64,000 bases of DNA from Pirellulales bacterium (GTDB taxonomy: Bacteria; Planctomycetota; Planctomycetia; Pirellulales; Lacipirellulaceae). Under the pieces are notes generated by a model. It was not told the DNA's origin and did no database searches. It was given only the letters and a program-made list of their open reading frames with translations. A program made the translations under genes and the position numbers. Where the stretch lies: NCBI GenBank assembly GCA_022448265.1, contig JAKVCC010000010.1, forward strand, positions 124,001 to 188,000, read 5' to 3'. Positions 2,255-35,675 of this stretch are shown piece after piece (the stretch's first letter is position 1; each line of letters opens with the position of its first letter).

Positions 2255-3259
2255 TCATACACCCCAGAAAATGGCCATCGCGATCAGTGCCGCGATTGCC
2301 AGCACCCCCACCAGGATTCGCATCGCGCCTGGATTTTCTCGTAAGGCGACTTCTTCCAAATAGGGCAGACTGGGTGTCAATTCTCCCAGATTGGCTCCAA
2401 ACTGCTCTTCCAATTGATCTTTGATATTTCCTTGGACGGCACGAGCGTTGAAGGGTCGCCGTTCAGGGTCTTTTTCGAGCAGTTGCATGACAAGTTCTTC
2501 CAACCACAAGGGGCAATCGATCCCTGCAGCGCGCAAACCGCCTGGTTTCTTATGGAGGTGCTGATCCCAGATTTGAGCGAAGTTATTTCCCCAAAACGGA
2601 GGCTTTCCCGTCAGCATTTCGACCATAACGCAACCGAGGGAATAGAGATCGGCTTTGCCCGAGATTTCTTTGTCAGCGCAGATCTGCTCCGGCGACATAT
2701 ACGCGTAGGTCCCAACGGTGATACCATCACCCGTCAAATCTGACTCATGGACGTCCCGGGCAATCCCGAAATCACCGAGTACAACTGCGCCGCTGTCGTC
2801 AAAAAACAGATTGCTGGTTTTCAGATCGCGGTGGATGATACCGTGGTTATGGGCATGCTGCAGGGCGGAAGCGATTTGCGCGCTGTAGGCGGCCGCTTGA
2901 GTCCACGGCAACGGCCCATGCTTTTGTAAGTGCGTTTTGAGTGTGCCATAATTCAACAACTGCATCGCATAAAAGTATTGGCCATCCATCAATCCACCCC
3001 CGTAGGTGTGTACGATATGGGGGTGGTTGAGCCGCTCCATGATCGCAATCTCGCGCTGAAAACGGTTCACGATACGAGGATCATGCGCGATGGTGGGGTG
3101 CAGGAGCTTGATGGCGACCGGTTGATCTATGTCGGGGCTCTCCGCGCGAAAGACCGTGCCGACCGTGCCCACACCCAGCGGCTCCAAAAGGCGGAAAGTC
3201 GCGGCAGTTGGTAAGAACTTCAACTTTTTTTGCGGCACTGATGCCGGAGAGTCACACAT
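2255..3259 (-). CDS. Membrane-anchored serine/threonine protein kinase (PknB-like)
   Basis: A 334-residue Hanks-type kinase that should phosphorylate Ser/Thr on unknown partners. The catalytic set is complete: glycine-rich loop GVGTVGTVF (29-37), VAIK lysine at 51, HRDLKTSN (143-150) with catalytic Asp and metal-binding Asn, DFG (163-165), and YMSPE in place of APE. A single hydrophobic segment closes the protein (about 313-332), so the kinase domain faces the cytoplasm and there is no extracellular sensor domain. ATG 3259 is preceded by GGAAAA about 8 bases upstream. It is transcribed divergently from the glutamine synthetase genes and converges on the decarboxylase remnant. Substrate and signal are not evident from the sequence. 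Confidence 0.9.
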   Translation of the reverse strand: MCDSPASVPQKKLKFLPTAATFRLLEPLGVGTVGTVFRAESPDIDQPVAIKLLHPTIAHDPRIVNRFQREIAIMERLNHPHIVHTYGGGLMDGQYFYAMQLLNYGTLKTHLQKHGPLPWTQAAAYSAQIASALQHAHNHGIIHRDLKTSNLFFDDSGAVVLGDFGIARDVHESDLTGDGITVGTYAYMSPEQICADKEISGKADLYSLGCVMVEMLTGKPPFWGNNFAQIWDQHLHKKPGGLRAAGIDCPLWLEELVMQLLEKDPERRPFNARAVQGNIKDQLEEQFGANLGELTPSLPYLEEVALRENPGAMRILVGVLAIAALIAMAIFWGV

Positions 3260-3678
3260 ATCGGATTTTCCGTTGCTCCCGATCAGCTCACACGATGGGC
3301 AGGGATTGCATTGCCTCTGAGCAATTCCGACACCTGCCCCCTCTCATGACAGCCCGGAACGGCTCCGGTCGAGGTCAATCCTAACTGAAAACCCTGGTAG
3401 GCAGTATTGCACCACCCGGGAATTATGACCAAATCGGGGACTAGAAAATCTTCCGCCCGGGCCTTACGATGTGGGATCGCCCGGTTATTCTGCTCCGTCT
3501 GGGAATCAGGAGCTGACCGCTACCCCCGTACCGTTGTCAGTGTTGGCCTTCCCGGGTTGAACACTCGGGGCTTCCTGGGCCGAGAACCCGCAGGGTCGAT
3601 CTCTCAGGACAGGCGACGTTTTCCGCCTACGAATGCCAAAATACAATTTCAATCTTTTTTTGAGGAGCTAAATACAAG
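3260..3678. other. Divergent intergenic region between kinase and glutamine synthetase II
   Basis: About 420 bases between two divergent genes; it must carry both promoters. I see no credible small gene. A strong AGGAGC Shine-Dalgarno sequence lies about 10 bases before ATG 3679. I looked for a sigma-54 site, because nitrogen genes often have one, and found only a TGG...TTGC pair near 3395 with the wrong spacing. Confidence 0.5.
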
Positions 3679-4668
3679 ATGAGTTACAAGCTTGAATACA
3701 TCTGGTTGGACGGCTACACGCCGGAACCCAATCTCCGCAGCAAGACCAAAGTCGTTGAAAGTGAACCCGCGAGTGTCTCCGACTGCCCAGGCTGGTCCTT
3801 CGATGGCAGTAGCACGGAGCAGGCCGAAGGTAACTCATCCGACTGCCTGTTGAAGCCCATCAAAATAATCGCCGACCCGCAGCGGGACAATGCGTCGATG
3901 GTGCTCTGTGAAGTATTGAACGCCGACAGTTCCGTCCACCCGAGCAACGGCCGCGGCGACTTCGAAGACGATACGGATCTGTGGCTCGGTTTTGAGCAAG
4001 AATACACGATCATGAACGGCACCAAGCCGCTCGGTTTTCCGTCAGACGGCTACCCCGGCCCACAGGGACCCTACTATTGCTCGGTTGGCATTGACAACTG
4101 TGTTGGCCGCGACATCGTTGAAGATCACCTCGATACCTGCTTGGAGGCTGGCTTGTCGGTCACAGGCATCAATGCCGAAGTGATGAAAGGACAATGGGAA
4201 TATCAATTGTTCGGAAAGGGTGCCAAAAACGCTTGTGATGACCTATGGTTGTCGCGCTATCTTCTGCACCGAACTGCTGAGCGGTATGGCGTGACCATTC
4301 AACTGCATCCCAAGCCGATCAAAGGCGACTGGAATGGCAGTGGCATGCATACAAACTTCTCCAATACCGACATTCGCACGAAGGGTGGCGAGGATATGAT
4401 CAGGGGTATCTGCGAGAAGTTCCGTTCGCGCCACGAGGCCCATATCGCATCGTATGGATCAGACAACGACCAACGCTTGACCGGCCTACACGAAACGCAG
4501 GCGATTGATGCCTTCAGTTACGGTGTCAGTGACCGGGGTGCCTCGATCCGGATTCCTGTCGGCACAGTTCAAGACGGCTGGAAGGGTTACCTGGAAGACC
4601 GGCGCCCTGCCTCGAATGCCGATCCCTATAAGGTCGTGAGCGAAATACTGATGACGCTACGATCGTAG
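3679..4668 (+). CDS. glnII: Glutamine synthetase type II (GSII, eukaryotic-like)
   Basis: A 329-residue ATP-dependent glutamine synthetase of the GSII class, joining ammonia to glutamate in the cytoplasm. It begins [20 protein letters not shown] and [13 protein letters not shown], the beta-grasp domain of the eukaryotic/rhizobial GlnII family. The catalytic domain shows [38 protein letters not shown] and ASIRIP. Length equals rhizobial GlnII. GSII enzymes lack the adenylylation loop of GSI, so control is probably transcriptional or by feedback. A TTTTTTTGAGGAGC leader gives a strong ribosome site. The type I enzyme glnA follows 208 bases downstream on the same strand, an uncommon tandem pair. 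Confidence 0.95.
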
Positions 4669-6606: not shown

Positions 6607-8883
6607 CTAGTCGGCCGAGCTGACTCGGATAAGCCAGCCAAGCATCGCCGGGACCAAAACAGTCCGGACGAAAAAAGTGTCGATCAGAATGCCTAGCGAC
6701 AGGGCAAAACCAAGCTCAACCATGCCGTTGAGCTCAGCTGTGGTCATCGAGACGAATGTGCAAGCCATTATGATGCCGCAGCTGGTGATGATGGCGCCCG
6801 ACTGCACAAGCGCGTGGCGCAGCCCCTCAAGCGGGCCGAGCCGGAGCTGCTCTTCGCGCACGCGGGTCACCAAATAGATATTATAATCTTGGCCAACGGC
6901 AACCAGGATCACATAAAGGAATAATGGGACTTTCCAATCGAGGCCAACATAAGTATCGCCGCGGAGCGCGTGAAAAACCAAATCCGTAATACCTAACGTG
7001 ACGAGATAGCTCAAGATCACCGTCGCGATCAAATAGCAACACACGGCTGGCTGACGCAAGAGGATCACCAAGACGACCAACACGGCCGCCGCGACCAAGA
7101 TTTGAATTCGTCGGCGATCGGCAACGGTGACTTGCTCTAAATCACGGATCCCGGCAGTGGGGCCGAGCAATTCGAACGTAGCATTGTGCCAGTCGGAATT
7201 GGGATCGGTACGCAACCGGTCCAAGACCAGTTCCACTTGCTCGCATGTTTGCACGGCTTGAGCCGAGAACGGCTCATTATTTACAATAAGAAACAATCGC
7301 GTGACTTTTCCAGCCAAATCGCCTTGTTGCGAGACGAAAACTGCCTGTGTCAACGGACTTCCCTTGACAGCTAGAGATTGGAGTCCTTCGCTGGAAAAAA
7401 ACCGCACCGTCCCAGGCGGATCTCCGGTCGGTCGGTAAAGACTTCTTACTTCGGCAATCCCAGGCAAATCGTCGAGCGGTTTCGCGAGCTTCGCAATCCG
7501 CATCTGGCCGTCCACCGATGCGAGATCGCCATTGTGATGTTTTGCCAACACGACGAGCGGACCAATCTCACCAGGCGGAAAATGTCGCTCGAGCAATTGG
7601 GTTCCCCGCCTGGACTCCCGCTGCAGGTCCAATTCGCCCAGGAGATCGTAGGTGACATCCGTCCTCGCGCCGATCCAGGCTAACGGACTTACCGCCAGCA
7701 GACTGCCAACCAGGATCCAGCCAGGACGACTCAATACCCGAACTGCCAGCCAGTTCCAAACCGGGTGCGCCTCACCGCTGCCGGTGGCGGCATTTGCCGT
7801 GTTGCCTACTGCCGCCGCACCCAGGCGGGTCGTGAGCAGGGCAGGCATCAGCGTAAGACAGGCAACGAGTGTCACCCCAAGGCTAACGGCAATAGCGGGG
7901 CCACTGTAGGTGAACTTGCCAAAATCTGCCCAAGCCATCATGGCCAGCCCAGCAATCGTGGTCAGTGCACTGGTAGTCAGCGCAGCGCCCACGCGACCGA
8001 GTGCGGTAGCCACTGCTTCGCGATGCCCAAGACCTGCGGCGCGCTGCTCGCGAAAACGGGCTGTAAGAAACAAGCAATAATCCGTGCCAGCTCCGAATAG
8101 TAGCACGATCACGAAGATCTTGGTCGTGGTAAAAATACGGATACTCGGCCATGCGGCTGGATAGACGCGACTCCAATCAGCCAATAGAGCCAGCAAATCG
8201 ATTGACACCGAAGCCGCCACCCCGATCGTCAGCAGGGGTACCACGACTAGCAAAGGTGACCGATAGATAACCAGCAAGCCGATGCCAACCAGCAAGATCG
8301 TCGTTCGGTGGGTACTGGCAACGCTCGCTGCCGCAGCCGACAGCATATCGCCACCAATCGCGGCAGATCCCGTAATGCCAAGCTCTAATCCAGCCGGGGC
8401 CCGATATCGCTCCGCGGCCACCAAGTCGCTTAGCGATTTCAGGATGCGAATATTGTCAGTCGCCATAAACTCATTGGTCAGCCGCACGACGACTCGTACC
8501 GCTTGCCGGGAAGGACTCCGCAGTCGTCGGCCTACCAAGGCGGTCTTCTCTGTCCAGACATCCACGACCCCCATGTCCGGAAGTCGCTCAAGCTGTTGTC
8601 CCATGTCCAAGGCAAACTGGCGATCTTCTACGGAAAGCTCTTGGTCGCTGCGGGCAAAAACCAGCACGATTTGGCTTTGCGCTCGATCGTCGGGAAAGGC
8701 CTCGGAACTCAAGAGTTTGCCGCGGGCCGTCGTCGTAGTCGCGGGCAAGTGCTCCAAATCCCCGTCTCTGGCAACTTGGGACCAGGACGGCGCAAGGAGT
8801 TTGAGCAACACCGTAATCAGAAGCCAAGCAGCGATCACTGCCACGCGGTAGTTAGTAAGCCATCGGCCCAAGGCAAAAAACAT
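6607..8883 (-). CDS. MMPL/RND-family exporter
   Basis: A 758-residue membrane protein of the MMPL (RND-type) transporter family. It opens with one helix (RVAVIAAWLLITVLLKLL), then a large extracytoplasmic domain, a block of five to six helices (about 190-345), a second extracytoplasmic domain (about 400-570) and a second helix block to the C-terminus. The internal duplication is the RND plan. FGAGTDYCLFLTARFREQ and VAVGQDYNIYLVTRVREEQ are the paired GxGxDYxxxLxxR motifs of the two halves, with the Asp of the proton relay. It starts 39 bases after the Wzc-like gene on the same strand, so it probably shares its transcript and exports a lipid, glycolipid or polymer-linked product. The substrate cannot be read from sequence. 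Confidence 0.88.
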   Translation of the reverse strand: MFFALGRWLTNYRVAVIAAWLLITVLLKLLAPSWSQVARDGDLEHLPATTTTARGKLLSSEAFPDDRAQSQIVLVFARSDQELSVEDRQFALDMGQQLERLPDMGVVDVWTEKTALVGRRLRSPSRQAVRVVVRLTNEFMATDNIRILKSLSDLVAAERYRAPAGLELGITGSAAIGGDMLSAAAASVASTHRTTILLVGIGLLVIYRSPLLVVVPLLTIGVAASVSIDLLALLADWSRVYPAAWPSIRIFTTTKIFVIVLLFGAGTDYCLFLTARFREQRAAGLGHREAVATALGRVGAALTTSALTTIAGLAMMAWADFGKFTYSGPAIAVSLGVTLVACLTLMPALLTTRLGAAAVGNTANAATGSGEAHPVWNWLAVRVLSRPGWILVGSLLAVSPLAWIGARTDVTYDLLGELDLQRESRRGTQLLERHFPPGEIGPLVVLAKHHNGDLASVDGQMRIAKLAKPLDDLPGIAEVRSLYRPTGDPPGTVRFFSSEGLQSLAVKGSPLTQAVFVSQQGDLAGKVTRLFLIVNNEPFSAQAVQTCEQVELVLDRLRTDPNSDWHNATFELLGPTAGIRDLEQVTVADRRRIQILVAAAVLVVLVILLRQPAVCCYLIATVILSYLVTLGITDLVFHALRGDTYVGLDWKVPLFLYVILVAVGQDYNIYLVTRVREEQLRLGPLEGLRHALVQSGAIITSCGIIMACTFVSMTTAELNGMVELGFALSLGILIDTFFVRTVLVPAMLGWLIRVSSAD

Positions 8884-31197: not shown

Positions 31198-32082
31198 CTA
31201 ATTCTTGTCTTTGTCCTCGTGCTTCAAAGAGGCAATGGAAGCCACAAAATCCTGCATCGTCTGCATTCGCCGACTCGCCTCGGGTTCAAGACACTTGAAT
31301 ATCGCCTGCTCGATCGTGGGATGAACGGCTGGGTAGTGCTTCGACAACGGCAAAGGCCGCGTCAATCCGTGGTTCATGGCTGCCCGGCCGTCGCCGGTGC
31401 CACGCTGCCACGGCAGTTCAAAGGCAAACATCTCGTACATCGATACACCGAAGGAAAAAATGTCAAGTCGCTGATCCGTATGCCTTCTCCGCACGACTTC
31501 CGGCGACATGTAATTCGGCGTTCCAGTTCGAATCCCCGGTTGCATAAATTCGGGTCGGGCTGGAACAGTGAGCCCAAAGTCGATTAATTTCAGTGAGGTC
31601 GCATCGGGCGAACAAACGTAGTTCCGCGGACAGATGTCGCGATGAATGTAGCCGGCTTTGTGAACGACTTGCAGGGCTTCTGCAGCTTGACGCATCAACA
31701 CAAGGCGATTTCCATCGAGAAGGTTGCTGCGCCCCACGACAAGCGAATTGAGACCCGGTCCATCGAGAAACTCCATGACCAGAAACTGCTGTCCCTTGCT
31801 GGTAATTCCATAACTTTGTGTGACAACAATACGCGGGTGATCAAAAGAGCTAGCAATTTCTCCTTCGCTTGGTTTGTCGAGCCCGCGAAAGCGCATTTCC
31901 AGCTGTTCGTACTTTTCCTTATCCAGGATCTTCAGTCCAACAAGCTGTTCCGTCTTCCGATCCCGCGCCATGTGAAAATCGGACATGGTGCCCGATACGG
32001 CATCGCGCAGGATTTCGTATCGTTTAGAGATATCGACCTTGCCCCCCTCAAGGATTGACTTGAAAAAGGAGCTTATACCCAT
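31198..32082 (-). CDS. Atypical serine/threonine protein kinase next to accD
   Basis: A 294-residue soluble kinase. It keeps the VGLKIL lysine (51), HRDICPRN (147-154) with catalytic Asp and metal-site Asn, DFG (168-170) and YMSPEV. Two features are unusual. The glycine-rich loop is degenerate (RDAVSGTMSDFHMAR, one Gly). The catalytic loop lacks the HRDLKxxN lysine and has HRDxxxRN instead, a pattern closer to tyrosine kinases. It may be active with altered specificity or weakly active. There is no membrane helix. It begins 33 bases after the accD stop on the same strand, so the two are probably co-transcribed; a link to fatty-acid synthesis is inference from that position only. Confidence 0.88.
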   Translation of the reverse strand: MGISSFFKSILEGGKVDISKRYEILRDAVSGTMSDFHMARDRKTEQLVGLKILDKEKYEQLEMRFRGLDKPSEGEIASSFDHPRIVVTQSYGITSKGQQFLVMEFLDGPGLNSLVVGRSNLLDGNRLVLMRQAAEALQVVHKAGYIHRDICPRNYVCSPDATSLKLIDFGLTVPARPEFMQPGIRTGTPNYMSPEVVRRRHTDQRLDIFSFGVSMYEMFAFELPWQRGTGDGRAAMNHGLTRPLPLSKHYPAVHPTIEQAIFKCLEPEASRRMQTMQDFVASIASLKHEDKDKN

Positions 32083-32115: not shown

Positions 32116-32967
32116 CTACTGCCCGCAATAGTCGATGACACGGGCGATTTCGCTTTTCAGATCGGCTCGTTTGACAATTCGATCGATGTAACCGTGCTCA
32201 AGCAAAAACTCGCTGGTCTGAAAGCCTTCGGGGAGCTCGATACGAATGGTGGCTTTAATCGTGCGCGGACCAGCAAAGCCGATGAGCGCTTTGGGTTCGG
32301 CAAAAATGATGTCGCCCAACGATGCAAAACTGGCCGCAACACCACCCATCGTCGGATTTGTCAGCACAGAAATAAACAAACCTTGGGCCGCACTGTAGCG
32401 AGCCAATGCGGCCGAGACCTTTGCCATTTGCATAAGCGAGTAGATGCCTTCGTGCATGCGGGCTCCGCCCCCTGAACCACTAATAATAATCAGTGGCAAG
32501 TGCTCTTTAGTCGCTCGTTCAATCAATCTCGCAAGTCGTTCACCCACCACCGAGCCCATGCTTCCCATGATAAATGCGGAATCCGTAACTCCAAAAGCAA
32601 CACGCCGCGCACGAACCATTCCTGTCCCAGTCAGCACAGCGTCGCTAAGACCAGTCCGTTCCTGCTCAGCTAGAAGCCGGTCTTTGTACTTTTTCTTATC
32701 CTCAAATTCCAAAGGATCGTTGGGAGCTAGATTCGCGTCCCATTCTTCGAAAGTACCTTCATCGAGGACCGCACAAATCCTGCCGCGAGCGCTGAGATAC
32801 ATGTGGTATCCGCACTCGGGGCAAACGTTTTTCAGACGCTCAGCTTCCTTGCGGAAGATCATCTCGCCACAGTCCGTGCAGCGCAACCACAAACCACCCG
32901 GAACACCGCGCTTCTCGCGAAGTGGCTTGCCTTGTTCGCTCGGAGGTTCGCGCTCGCGGGTCGCCAT
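32116..32967 (-). CDS. accD: Acetyl-CoA carboxylase carboxyltransferase subunit beta
   Basis: A 283-residue subunit that, with AccA, transfers the carboxyl group from carboxybiotin to acetyl-CoA to make malonyl-CoA. The N-terminal zinc ribbon has Cys at 30, 33, 49 and 52 ([11 protein letters not shown] ... VCPECGY). The crotonase-like core includes [18 protein letters not shown], the oxyanion region [25 protein letters not shown] and [15 protein letters not shown] 32967 ([12 protein letters not shown]) starts just before the zinc ribbon; an upstream frame to 33084 lacks homology. The histidine-phosphatase-like gene lies upstream and the atypical kinase downstream, all on minus. Confidence 0.95.
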
Positions 32968-33105: not shown

Positions 33106-33684
33106 TCAACCGGACGCAACCGTGGCTGGCATCTCAATCAGTTCCCAGGGTGGCTGCCGCTCGCAATCCACCTGCCAGAGATTCCCCAGGTCGTCGTCAC
33201 GCAATACATTCCGCAAGACGCTAGTAACCGGCTCAGACACCACAATTGCAACGATTCCCGACTTCTGCCTTTTGGCAATCTTGGCCATCGCATGACGCAA
33301 TCGCTCGCGCACCGCTTGGAGCGACTCCCCCTCGGGCGGACACATGGTTTCGGGATGCTCCTGCCATTGCCGGTAGACCTTCGGCTGTTTGGCCTTTACG
33401 TCCTCAATCAACATTCCCTGCCAAAGGCCATGGTTGAGGTTCTGAAGCTCCACCACCGTTTTGGCTTTTAGCTGCAGTTGCTCAGCCAGAATTTCAGCCG
33501 ACTGCTTTGTTGCCCGGCATGGCCCCGCGTACATAGCATCGATGCTTCCCGTGCACAGTTGGTTGGCGACGAGCTCGACTTGCTGCCGGCCATCTTCGCT
33601 GAGGGGAATGTCGAGCGTTCCCTGCACGCGACCCTGGCCATCGTATTCCGTCGCGCCCGTGCGAATCAACACAATGTTTAACAT
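33106..33684 (-). CDS. Histidine phosphatase superfamily protein lacking both catalytic histidines
   Basis: A 192-residue protein with the phosphoglycerate-mutase/phosphatase fold: LIRTGATEYDGQGRVQGTLD then IPLSEDGRQQVE, matching the LVRHGxTxxNxxxRxQGxxDxPLxxxG pattern. The phospho-accepting His of RHG is Thr (residue 9, codon ACG), and the second catalytic His (VSHG) is Glu (VVSEPV, residue 151). The phosphate-pocket Arg in PCRATKQSAE is kept. Without the two His the classical reaction is not possible, so a binding or regulatory role is more likely. It lies between rpe (30 bases upstream) and accD on minus, in what looks like one transcript. Confidence 0.9.
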   Translation of the reverse strand: MLNIVLIRTGATEYDGQGRVQGTLDIPLSEDGRQQVELVANQLCTGSIDAMYAGPCRATKQSAEILAEQLQLKAKTVVELQNLNHGLWQGMLIEDVKAKQPKVYRQWQEHPETMCPPEGESLQAVRERLRHAMAKIAKRQKSGIVAIVVSEPVTSVLRNVLRDDDLGNLWQVDCERQPPWELIEMPATVASG

Positions 33685-33714: not shown

Positions 33715-34419
33715 TCACTGCATGGATGCAAGCGCCCGCAGGCGCGCCATGCTGGCAGCGTAGTCTGCCTGGCCGGTAATTGCCGAACCGACAACCAATA
33801 ACTGCGCGCCGGCCGCTACGCAGTCGACAATCGTCTCTTCGTTCACACCGCCATCGACTTCTAGTACCGTACCCTTGGGCACTCGTGAGCGAAGGTCGCG
33901 GAGTTTCTTCAGTGCAATTTGGTCGAGCGATTGACCGCCAAATCCTGGCATCACGCTCATCACCAAAACGAGGTCGCACAGCGGCAAAGCTGCTGCGATA
34001 GTGTCCAAGGGAGTCGGCGGATTGATCGCCAAACCGGCTCGCGCTCCCAAAGCCCGTATTTCTTGCAACAGCGGACGCGGGTCGTCAAGCACCTCGGCAT
34101 GGACCGTTACGATATCTGCTCCTGCCTCGACATACCTGGCAACGTATTGGGTCGGATTGGCAATCATTAGATGGACGTCCAGAGGCAATTCCGTCAAACG
34201 ACGGATCGCCTCGATCACAGGAAATCCGAAACTCAAATTTGGCACAAAATTGCCGTCCATCACATCCAGGTGAAGACCCTTTGCACCCGCTTCCTCCAGA
34301 CGCCCTATTTCTCGTTCCAGATTTCCGAAATCACATTGCAGTACCGACGGCATCACAACAGGCGCCGAGGCACACAAATGACTAAGGTCACCAGAGAAAG
34401 ACGCAGCTTTTTGAGACAT
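33715..34419 (-). CDS. rpe: Ribulose-phosphate 3-epimerase
   Basis: A 234-residue TIM-barrel enzyme that interconverts ribulose-5-phosphate and xylulose-5-phosphate. Active-site parts are PSVLQCDFGNLEREI (Ser and Asp-linked start), LHLDVMDGNFVPN (metal His and Asp), VHLMI (His), VMPGFGGQ (phosphate loop) and LEVDGGVNEETI (Asp). The start is uncertain. ATG 34419 (MSQKAASF) is taken here. The frame continues upstream to 34551 through a hydrophobic segment (GIWAALVVALVAAPGSI) that is not part of normal Rpe, and no candidate has a good ribosome site. scpB lies about 550 bases upstream; the pseudo-phosphatase follows after 30 bases. Confidence 0.93.
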   Translation of the reverse strand: MSQKAASFSGDLSHLCASAPVVMPSVLQCDFGNLEREIGRLEEAGAKGLHLDVMDGNFVPNLSFGFPVIEAIRRLTELPLDVHLMIANPTQYVARYVEAGADIVTVHAEVLDDPRPLLQEIRALGARAGLAINPPTPLDTIAAALPLCDLVLVMSVMPGFGGQSLDQIALKKLRDLRSRVPKGTVLEVDGGVNEETIVDCVAAGAQLLVVGSAITGQADYAASMARLRALASMQ

Positions 34420-34973
34420 GAACGTTCGTAATTCCATCGGCCATCTGTTGATCGAGCCGGGAGCAGCAACTAGCGCTACAACCAATGCCGCCCATATGCC
34501 AAGGCGTCTCGATATTGGAAACTTGAATACGGGACTCACGCCTAGGATCAAAGATTGCCTGAAAAACTTAAAAGCCCCTGATCAAATAAATGCGTGCGCG
34601 GCATGCAGCAATGCAGATCGGGTCGGATAGGCTCTCGTTGGAAAGAAGGATTGCAGCAAGGCTCATTCGACAAGCGGGTGTCATCAATGCCACTACCAGT
34701 AATACTCTGTATTGGCAGTACTTAGTATTCGCTGAATGAGGTCGAGATTTTAGCAAGCTCCCGCTCGACCGCCAGGGATGCATTCCCAAATAATTTACTT
34801 AAACATCTATTATTAAATGACTTAGAGGCTGTCTAAGCACCTCAAAAATGCTGCCTTTGCCGTCATCGTGGTGCCGCCAACGATCGGCCAAGTGCGAACC
34901 ACAAAGGTCTGCACTGGCGAATGACTTTGCCGCCCAAGCCTTGAAAGCCGACACCCAAGCCCCGGCCGCGGCT
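34420..34973. other. Intergenic region between scpB and rpe
   Basis: About 550 bases. AT-rich stretches (TTATTAAATGAC near 34810) suggest a promoter for the rpe gene string. The phrase GAGGCTGTCTAAGCACC near 34827 looks like an insertion-sequence end, but no partner end or transposase remnant was found, so none is called. Confidence 0.35.
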
Positions 34974-35675
34974 CTACTTGTCGTCTAATTCCTCGGGCGT
35001 AGGTAGATCTTGCGGCGAGTCGATATGAAATAACCGATTAAAGCGTTCGGTCGTCAAGTAAGTGGGCTTGCGTGGTGAGTCCTCGGGGCGCTCTATTCCA
35101 AGAAGCCCGCGTCTTACCAACTGATTGAGAATGGCAAGGCTTCGCGAGCCGCGCAAGCGCGTAACCTCTTCTGCCGTTACGGGTTGACGATACGCGACGA
35201 CCGAAAGAACTTCGATAGCCGGTGTTGTAAGCTTGGCTTCACGCACGCGACCGTAAAACCTTTGCCGAATCGATTCATATTCCTGCTTGACTTGCATCCG
35301 ATAATCGGATCCCTGACTCGCAATTTCGTAGGGCACTCCGGCCTCGTCATAGGACGCATTGAGCTCCTTAATGAGCCGGTCGACTTCAGTCGGAGAAACA
35401 TTGCGAATGCTGGCGGCCATTTCTCGACTACTGAGCAGCCCACCCTCATCACTGCCAACAAAGAGCATGCCTTCGACAATCATACGAGGCGATAGCACCT
35501 CGCCCGTCCACATAGACTGGGGTGCCGGATCTTGCAATTCATGTAATGCATCGGCAATACTCGGCGTCGCCTCCTCCGCAGCGCCAGTGCCGGTCAATCG
35601 GGCAAACGCGGCCGACAATCCATGCAAAGAAAACCGTTCGCGCGCATCGGCTGCAGTGGTTTCAGAACCTGACAT
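34974..35675 (-). CDS. scpB: Segregation and condensation protein B
   Basis: A 233-residue winged-helix protein that works with ScpA and SMC in chromosome condensation. The first wHTH (MIVEGMLFVGSDEGGLLSSR ... VDRLIKELNASYD) and the second (KLTTPAIEVLSVVAYRQPVT, then LRGSRSLAILNQLVRRGLLG) match the family, with EDSPRKPTYLTTERFNRLFHI near the end. An N-terminal extension of about 50 residues is species-specific. ATG 35675 is the only reasonable start. It is the first gene of the minus series leading to rpe and accD, although the 550-base gap suggests a separate promoter for those. Confidence 0.93.
   Translation of the reverse strand: MSGSETTAADARERFSLHGLSAAFARLTGTGAAEEATPSIADALHELQDPAPQSMWTGEVLSPRMIVEGMLFVGSDEGGLLSSREMAASIRNVSPTEVDRLIKELNASYDEAGVPYEIASQGSDYRMQVKQEYESIRQRFYGRVREAKLTTPAIEVLSVVAYRQPVTAEEVTRLRGSRSLAILNQLVRRGLLGIERPEDSPRKPTYLTTERFNRLFHIDSPQDLPTPEELDDK

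Follow-up and report, generated by a model that had tools for sequence, protein, structure and literature searches.

The window (the whole stretch of DNA that was analysed, 64,000 nucleotides) carries on its minus strand, at positions 33106–33684, a gene for a protein of 192 amino acids counted from an ATG, which matches the Pfam family His_Phos_1 (4.5e-37) and which we refer to as pseudo-histidine-phosphatase (pHP). On the same strand, rpe (ribulose-phosphate 3-epimerase, 33715–34419; Pfam Ribul_P_3_epim, 2e-66) lies upstream across a gap of 30 bp, and accD (acetyl-CoA carboxylase carboxyltransferase beta, 32116–32967; Pfam Carboxyl_trans and Zn_ribbon_ACC) lies downstream across a gap of 138 bp, in agreement with the first-pass annotation, which had placed the homologue between these two genes. 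An alternative earlier in-frame start would extend rpe to position 34551. Beyond accD follows a protein kinase-like gene (31198–32082, minus strand; Pfam Pkinase, 2e-34) with both the HRD and the DFG motif. Upstream of rpe lies scpB (34974–35675, minus strand; Pfam SMC_ScpB, 1.1e-34), which occupies this place at numerous loci within the same order. In the genome of the window, accA is found on another contig than accD (G000:C21:7573-8493).

Predicted fold and missing catalytic residues

Membership of pHP in the family is supported by a score of 128 bits against Pfam His_Phos_1 (PF00300), for which the cut-off is 21.7. The best named model is that of phosphoserine phosphatase PspA (NF045917), with 117.5 bits against an equivalog cut-off of 350, and none of the NCBIfam models claims pHP at its own cut-off. 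By sequence, the closest solved structure is that of the metal-independent phosphoserine phosphatase PspA of Hydrogenobacter (4ij6 and 4ij5, E-values 1.2e-26 and 2.3e-26). The two proteins align without gaps over residues 1–177, so that they share one numbering, and both display the motif HGxWxGML. An AlphaFold2 model of pHP, based on an alignment of 7 rows, reached a mean pLDDT of 86.2 and a pTM of 0.84, with block means falling to 60–66 and lower from about residue 161 onward. PspA is ranked top for this model both by Foldseek (TMq 0.82) and by VIA-align (Z 24.2 to 4ij6; Z 23.7–24.2 and rmsd 2.1–2.2 over 186 residues for 4ij5/4ij6), and a further match to PhoE is consistent with the alpha/beta fold of the family. 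As modelled, the fold of pHP is that of the active enzymes, and the earlier claim that the histidine phosphatase fold remains agrees with this.

PspA possesses H9, R58, E82 and H150, which, together with the pocket positions, are established as the catalytic and phosphate-pocket residues of the superfamily. All four are absent from pHP, where the alignment places Thr9 instead of the nucleophilic histidine of RHG, Ala58 instead of the second phosphate-pocket arginine, Asn82 instead of the acid Glu/Asp, and Ser150 instead of the second histidine. Arg8 is kept, and Asn15 is replaced by Asp. The first-pass annotation had thus been right that neither catalytic histidine is present, but its count of two lost residues missed the substitutions at 58 and 82, and the loss comprises four. 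Its reading of VSHG as VSEP holds as far as the loss of the histidine is concerned; the replacement was misassigned, since the histidine aligns with Ser150 and the Glu is the neighbouring residue. Likewise, the phosphate-pocket arginine said to remain is correct for Arg8 and incorrect for the second one, the nearby R57 being off by one position. From these substitutions we infer that pHP cannot hydrolyse phosphate esters.

Homologues in Planctomycetota

A protein search in 296 genomes of the same order gave a match in 261 at E<=0.001, the weak matches among which may be catalytic paralogues. This order is probably Pirellulales, since a Thermoguttaceae record (L033) codes for a homologue identical to that of G122, which belongs to the order. 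With a profile of 10 rows, most of the genomes searched in the class gave a match (265/397 at E<=1e-20, a few catalytic matches possibly included), as did 118 of the 392 genomes searched in the phylum at E<=1e-15, a threshold at which, beyond the class, many of the matches that were read turned out to be catalytic. Loci were fetched by sequence score and not by context. The 211 fetched loci yielded 168 homologues after removal of identical domain sequences, 141 without His9 (one per genome) and 27 with it. As His9 itself defines the inactive and the catalytic set, the informative part lies in the other positions and in the genomic context. Planctomycetia contribute 132 homologues to the inactive set, of which 128 were assigned through their kinship to the window as given by the search and 4 belong to named planctomycete records; the other 9 belong to the phylum outside this class. 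Planctomycete genomes also account for 26 of the 27 catalytic rows, the remaining one (L038) being a Clostridia record.

None of H9, R58, E/D82 and H150 is present in 131 of the 132 Planctomycetia homologues, the exception being a single Arg58 (L050, 1/132). The second histidine was scored anywhere in residues 146–153, as the column slips in some rows, and no histidine was found there in any of the 132 or in the 9 other inactive rows. The His9-bearing homologues, on the other hand, hold all four residues without exception (27/27). Position 9 in Planctomycetia is Pro, Thr, Ser or Ala throughout (Pro in 100, Thr in 14), and positions 9, 58, 85 and 150 drift among small residues, proline and others in the inactive homologues. 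Conservation of the window's Thr and Glu in orthologues, for which an alignment had been proposed at the outset, is therefore seen in part: Thr is a minority residue at a position that is mostly Pro, and Glu151 is found in 101/132, yet it does not stand at the histidine position.

Other positions are held firmly in the Planctomycetia homologues: Asn82 in 132/132 (0/27 of the catalytic ones), Cys115 in 119/132 (1/27), Pro152 in 129/132 (1/27) and Pro116 in 130/132, with Asp15 in 108/132 and Arg8 in 116/132. Residues that are so common here and absent or rare in catalytic homologues (Asn82, Cys115 and Pro152), as well as the frequent Asp15, could be taken to indicate a new enzyme, in which the old pocket has been rebuilt around Asn82, Asp15, Glu151, Arg8 and, at the rim, Cys115 for a chemistry that does not involve phosphohistidine. 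However, the drift at positions 9, 58, 85 and 150 is unlike that of a working active site, and outside Planctomycetia Cys115 is absent from 8/9 and Asn82 from 9/9 inactive homologues. We regard a new enzyme as improbable.

Neither histidine nor Arg58 is present in the 9 inactive homologues of the phylum outside Planctomycetia, whereas 7 of them keep Glu82, which suggests that the histidines and Arg58 were lost first and that the loss of Glu82 followed later, in Planctomycetia. The homologues that retain Glu82 (7 of the first 9 listed loci) possibly represent a step midway towards a protein without catalytic function. Inactive homologues adjoining accD outside Planctomycetia were observed at L172-L177, L183, L184, L190 and L242.

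A maximum-likelihood tree was computed from 63 inactive rows and 28 catalytic ones, PspA and PhoE among the latter, after removal of columns 8–10, 58, 82 and 149–151. All 63 inactive rows fall on one side of a branch with support 100/99, found in 100% of 200 bootstrap trees, in a tree whose bootstrap was not fully settled and in which three end branches are long. The catalytic residues were most likely lost once, early in Planctomycetota. The gene is under purifying selection: dN/dS amounts to 0.016–0.254 in the 46 computable of 54 pairs with at least 80% identity. Conserved loss of catalytic residues among orthologues together with purifying selection is what characterizes a pseudo-enzyme, and both are found here. 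Decay confined to one strain, in which case orthologues would have retained the two histidines, was considered and rejected on account of the class-wide loss of the residues, the invariant Asn82 and the dN/dS range. Among the matches listed, all of the inactive homologues (35/35) lie beside accD, and neither histidine is kept at this address.

Conservation was measured as mean pairwise identity in a core set reduced to 63 rows by thinning at 60% identity. It peaks in residues 82–120 (0.61), followed by residues 2–30 (0.56), 121–165 (0.36), 31–81 (0.32) and 166–185 (0.26). This most conserved stretch, encoded at 33325–33441 on the minus strand, includes Asn82, G-L-W-Q-G, the lid helices and C115-P-P-x-G-E, and from the predicted fold and general knowledge of the family we take it to be the lid. 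The same peak is displayed by the 9 rows of the phylum outside Planctomycetia (0.445 versus 0.13–0.40), whereas identity in residues 82–120 is 0.32 among the 27 catalytic rows, a set of more diverse composition. Constraint on the lid and the rim of the pocket is thus stronger than in the enzymes, while positions 9, 58, 85 and 150 drift, a pattern that suits a binding surface more than it does an active site.

Linkage to rpe and accD and repeated loss of the gene

Genomic context was counted in 100 loci from 100 different genomes, each with an inactive homologue. In 77 of them rpe lies upstream and accD downstream, both within 1 kb. Another 11 keep rpe and have no accD despite at least 3 kb of downstream sequence, and 10 keep accD and have no rpe despite at least 3 kb upstream. 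The last 2 belong to none of these groups, as L049 runs into a contig end and the match to rpe in L173 lies 1002 bp away. Within 1.5 kb and on the same strand, rpe and/or accD is present in all 100 loci. The median gap, measured from match edges, is 47 bp to rpe (n=89) versus 164.5 bp to accD (n=88). Shared downstream genes were sought in 7 of the 11 loci without accD, and none was common to all 7; two genes are common to L057 and L074, both of family f15. No match to Rpe, AccD, kinase, ScpB, IlvB or FumC was found inside the open reading frames of the 141 inactive homologues, which speaks for no fusion with any of these. A plasmid search returned 96 records, all below 60% identity; the five listed are 27–32% identical and annotated as histidine phosphatases.

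A kinase-like gene after accD was observed in Planctomycetia at 37/68 accD loci with pHP and 12/21 without, and at the remaining accD loci (those beyond the class or lacking a family code) at 3/13 with pHP and 0/20 without. The kinase-like proteins contain HRD in 53/55 and DFG in 55/55 cases, and judging by these motifs the accD-linked kinase is probably active.

The catalytic homologues are located differently. While the family is common to both, and 26 planctomycete rows keep all four residues, 25 of the 27 catalytic homologues have neither rpe nor accD within the fetched 5.7–12.6 kb, and one (L044) follows accD. The gene order in L044 is rpe, inactive homologue, accD and catalytic homologue (7696-8349, plus strand); the latter has all four residues and groups with the catalytic L192 and L194 of other genomes of the same order. 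Linkage to accD is, by this example, not exclusive to the inactive form.

Such an arrangement raises the question of a regulatory subunit, i.e. of pHP forming a heterodimer with a catalytic histidine phosphatase. Pseudo-enzymes can regulate active relatives, according to a review (PMC10211241), and 13 genomes among those read encode a catalytic homologue in addition to the inactive one; the two flank accD in L044. In the other 12 of these genomes, however, the catalytic copy read was elsewhere, and the genome of the window has no PspA-like paralogue. The only other His_Phos_1 match in that genome (L002, G000:C23:198372-198587) shows RHA and GHA motifs, and we presume it to be SixA-like. A heterodimer with a PspA paralogue was rejected for the window's genome, as none such is encoded there, while a catalytic homologue just after accD exists elsewhere, in L044. 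Overall, a role as subunit of an active relative seems very unlikely.

To follow the absence of the gene, accD was searched in 60 genomes, mostly chosen for having no strong pHP match, of which 52 gave accD. Among the 53 accD loci inspected in these genomes, a few of them with little upstream sequence, a histidine phosphatase was present in the stretch in only one (L242), and this one is also inactive. In many loci without the pHP gene, rpe directly adjoins accD. In an AccD tree with 134 rows, the gene being present for 87 and absent for 47, its presence requires 14 changes, at least 8 of them forced by starred branches; the tree is a quick one with long branches, and the gene-less genomes were picked as such. 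By these sequence comparisons, the gene is ancient within the phylum, repeatedly lost, and dispensable for AccD or Rpe as such, as repeated loss that often leaves rpe beside accD indicates that both enzymes can work without pHP. Columns of AccD and Rpe that track presence of the gene were sought, and no clean one was found. Weak tracking was seen at F198 and S216 of AccD and at C29, L51, T105 and P158 of Rpe; that of S216 fails outside Planctomycetia.

In two genomes of one genus (L201 and L203; f22, g150; about 2914-3783), the copy located between rpe and accD is extremely divergent, with a branch length of 2.38 and QPG in place of RHG.

Repeated loss and very divergent copies such as these would also be expected of a decaying relic that is merely carried along by the operon. 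In view of the low dN/dS values, the Asn82 found in every Planctomycetia homologue and the persistence of the gene in most genomes searched in the class, we consider this explanation to have hardly any probability. Being old yet repeatedly lost, and dispensable to AccD and Rpe, the gene would rather have an accessory or regulatory role.

Possible role of pHP

On balance, we favour the view that pHP is a PspA-like pseudo-enzyme, kept as a non-catalytic binding or regulatory protein of the rpe–accD operon. The catalytic residues of a PspA-like histidine phosphatase would have disappeared, most likely in a single event at an early point in Planctomycetota, and the inactive protein would have been kept as a non-catalytic binder encoded between rpe and accD. 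The lid face (residues 82–120) and the rebuilt pocket (R8, D15 and N82, with small residues at 9, 58 and 150) may bind either a protein partner or a small ligand. In this way, pHP could tune a partner from its operon, in the first place AccD (commitment to fatty-acid synthesis) and in the second Rpe (pentose-phosphate pathway), as an accessory and not an essential factor. The proposal of a pseudo-enzyme conserved in a core operon, made in the first-pass annotation, gains support from the residue loss in 131/132 homologues, from purifying selection and from the conserved address; the binding or regulatory role, and a partner from the operon, are what we infer from these data.

AccD is put first because three loci outside Planctomycetia that have no rpe (L172, L184 and L190) keep the pHP gene next to accD. 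The shorter gap to rpe, on the other hand, argues for Rpe as the partner, and linkage as a whole does not separate the two (10 loci with accD only, 11 with rpe only). One may even speculate about a link between Rpe and AccD that would join NADPH from the pentose-phosphate pathway with fatty-acid synthesis. Operon linkage alone is no proof of a functional link. Only tentatively, and with more doubt than confidence, do we suggest that a dead fold of the phosphoserine-phosphatase type has given rise to a non-catalytic regulator specific to planctomycetes, with the old lid and pocket as the binding face, which would act on acetyl-CoA carboxylase or connect Rpe with AccD.

In eukaryotes, pseudo-enzymes with related folds have been described. 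The flea salivary XcAP proteins are histidine acid phosphatases of branch 2 of the superfamily, and STYX and MTMR13 have other phosphatase folds than histidine phosphatase. The bacterial pHP family was not found in the open-licence PubMed Central literature searched. In the searched passages of an essentiality study of Planctopirus limnophila, the pHP gene is not named (PMC10632474). The sections of the flea study that were searched describe acid phosphatase-like proteins that have lost catalytic residues, have no activity and bind amines and leukotrienes, with XcAP-1 holding a C16 fatty acid whose carboxylate is directed towards the substituted catalytic residues (PMC10728186). As far as those sections go, XcAP-1/2/3 resemble pHP in being acid phosphatase-like and in having lost catalytic residues, and became binders; however, they are secreted animal proteins with one or two residues lost (PMC10728186), while pHP is encoded in a bacterial operon and lacks all four. 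Unlike in the flea setting, the loss in pHP is preserved within a whole class and extends beyond it. Pseudophosphatases such as STYX and MTMR13 are inactive folds used for binding or allosteric control, in the searched part of the source (PMC10211241); they share with pHP an inactive phosphatase fold, are eukaryotic, and homology to pHP is not claimed.

The precedent of flea XcAP (PMC10728186), of the same general fold, and the retention of Arg8 in 116/132 homologues may point to a ligand sensor, in which the emptied pocket binds a metabolite (e.g. an acyl or carboxylate group on Arg8) and reports to AccD or Rpe. Considering that Arg8 is lost in 16/132 and that the pocket residues vary, we hold this form of the idea to be rather unlikely, if less so than a new enzyme; it overlaps with, and does not oppose, a binding pseudo-enzyme.

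Annotation by family alone would label pHP a phosphatase or a phosphoglycerate mutase, and for the Planctomycetia homologues read, this label is very probably wrong as far as their residues tell. With a fixed address, a single, well-supported inactive group and natural losses, pHP makes a good system for studying how a dead enzyme gains a new job, and the catalytic relatives inside some of the same genomes (13 read) add to its use. If pHP acts on AccD, the first committed step of fatty-acid synthesis would be subject to a kind of control that is new for bacteria.
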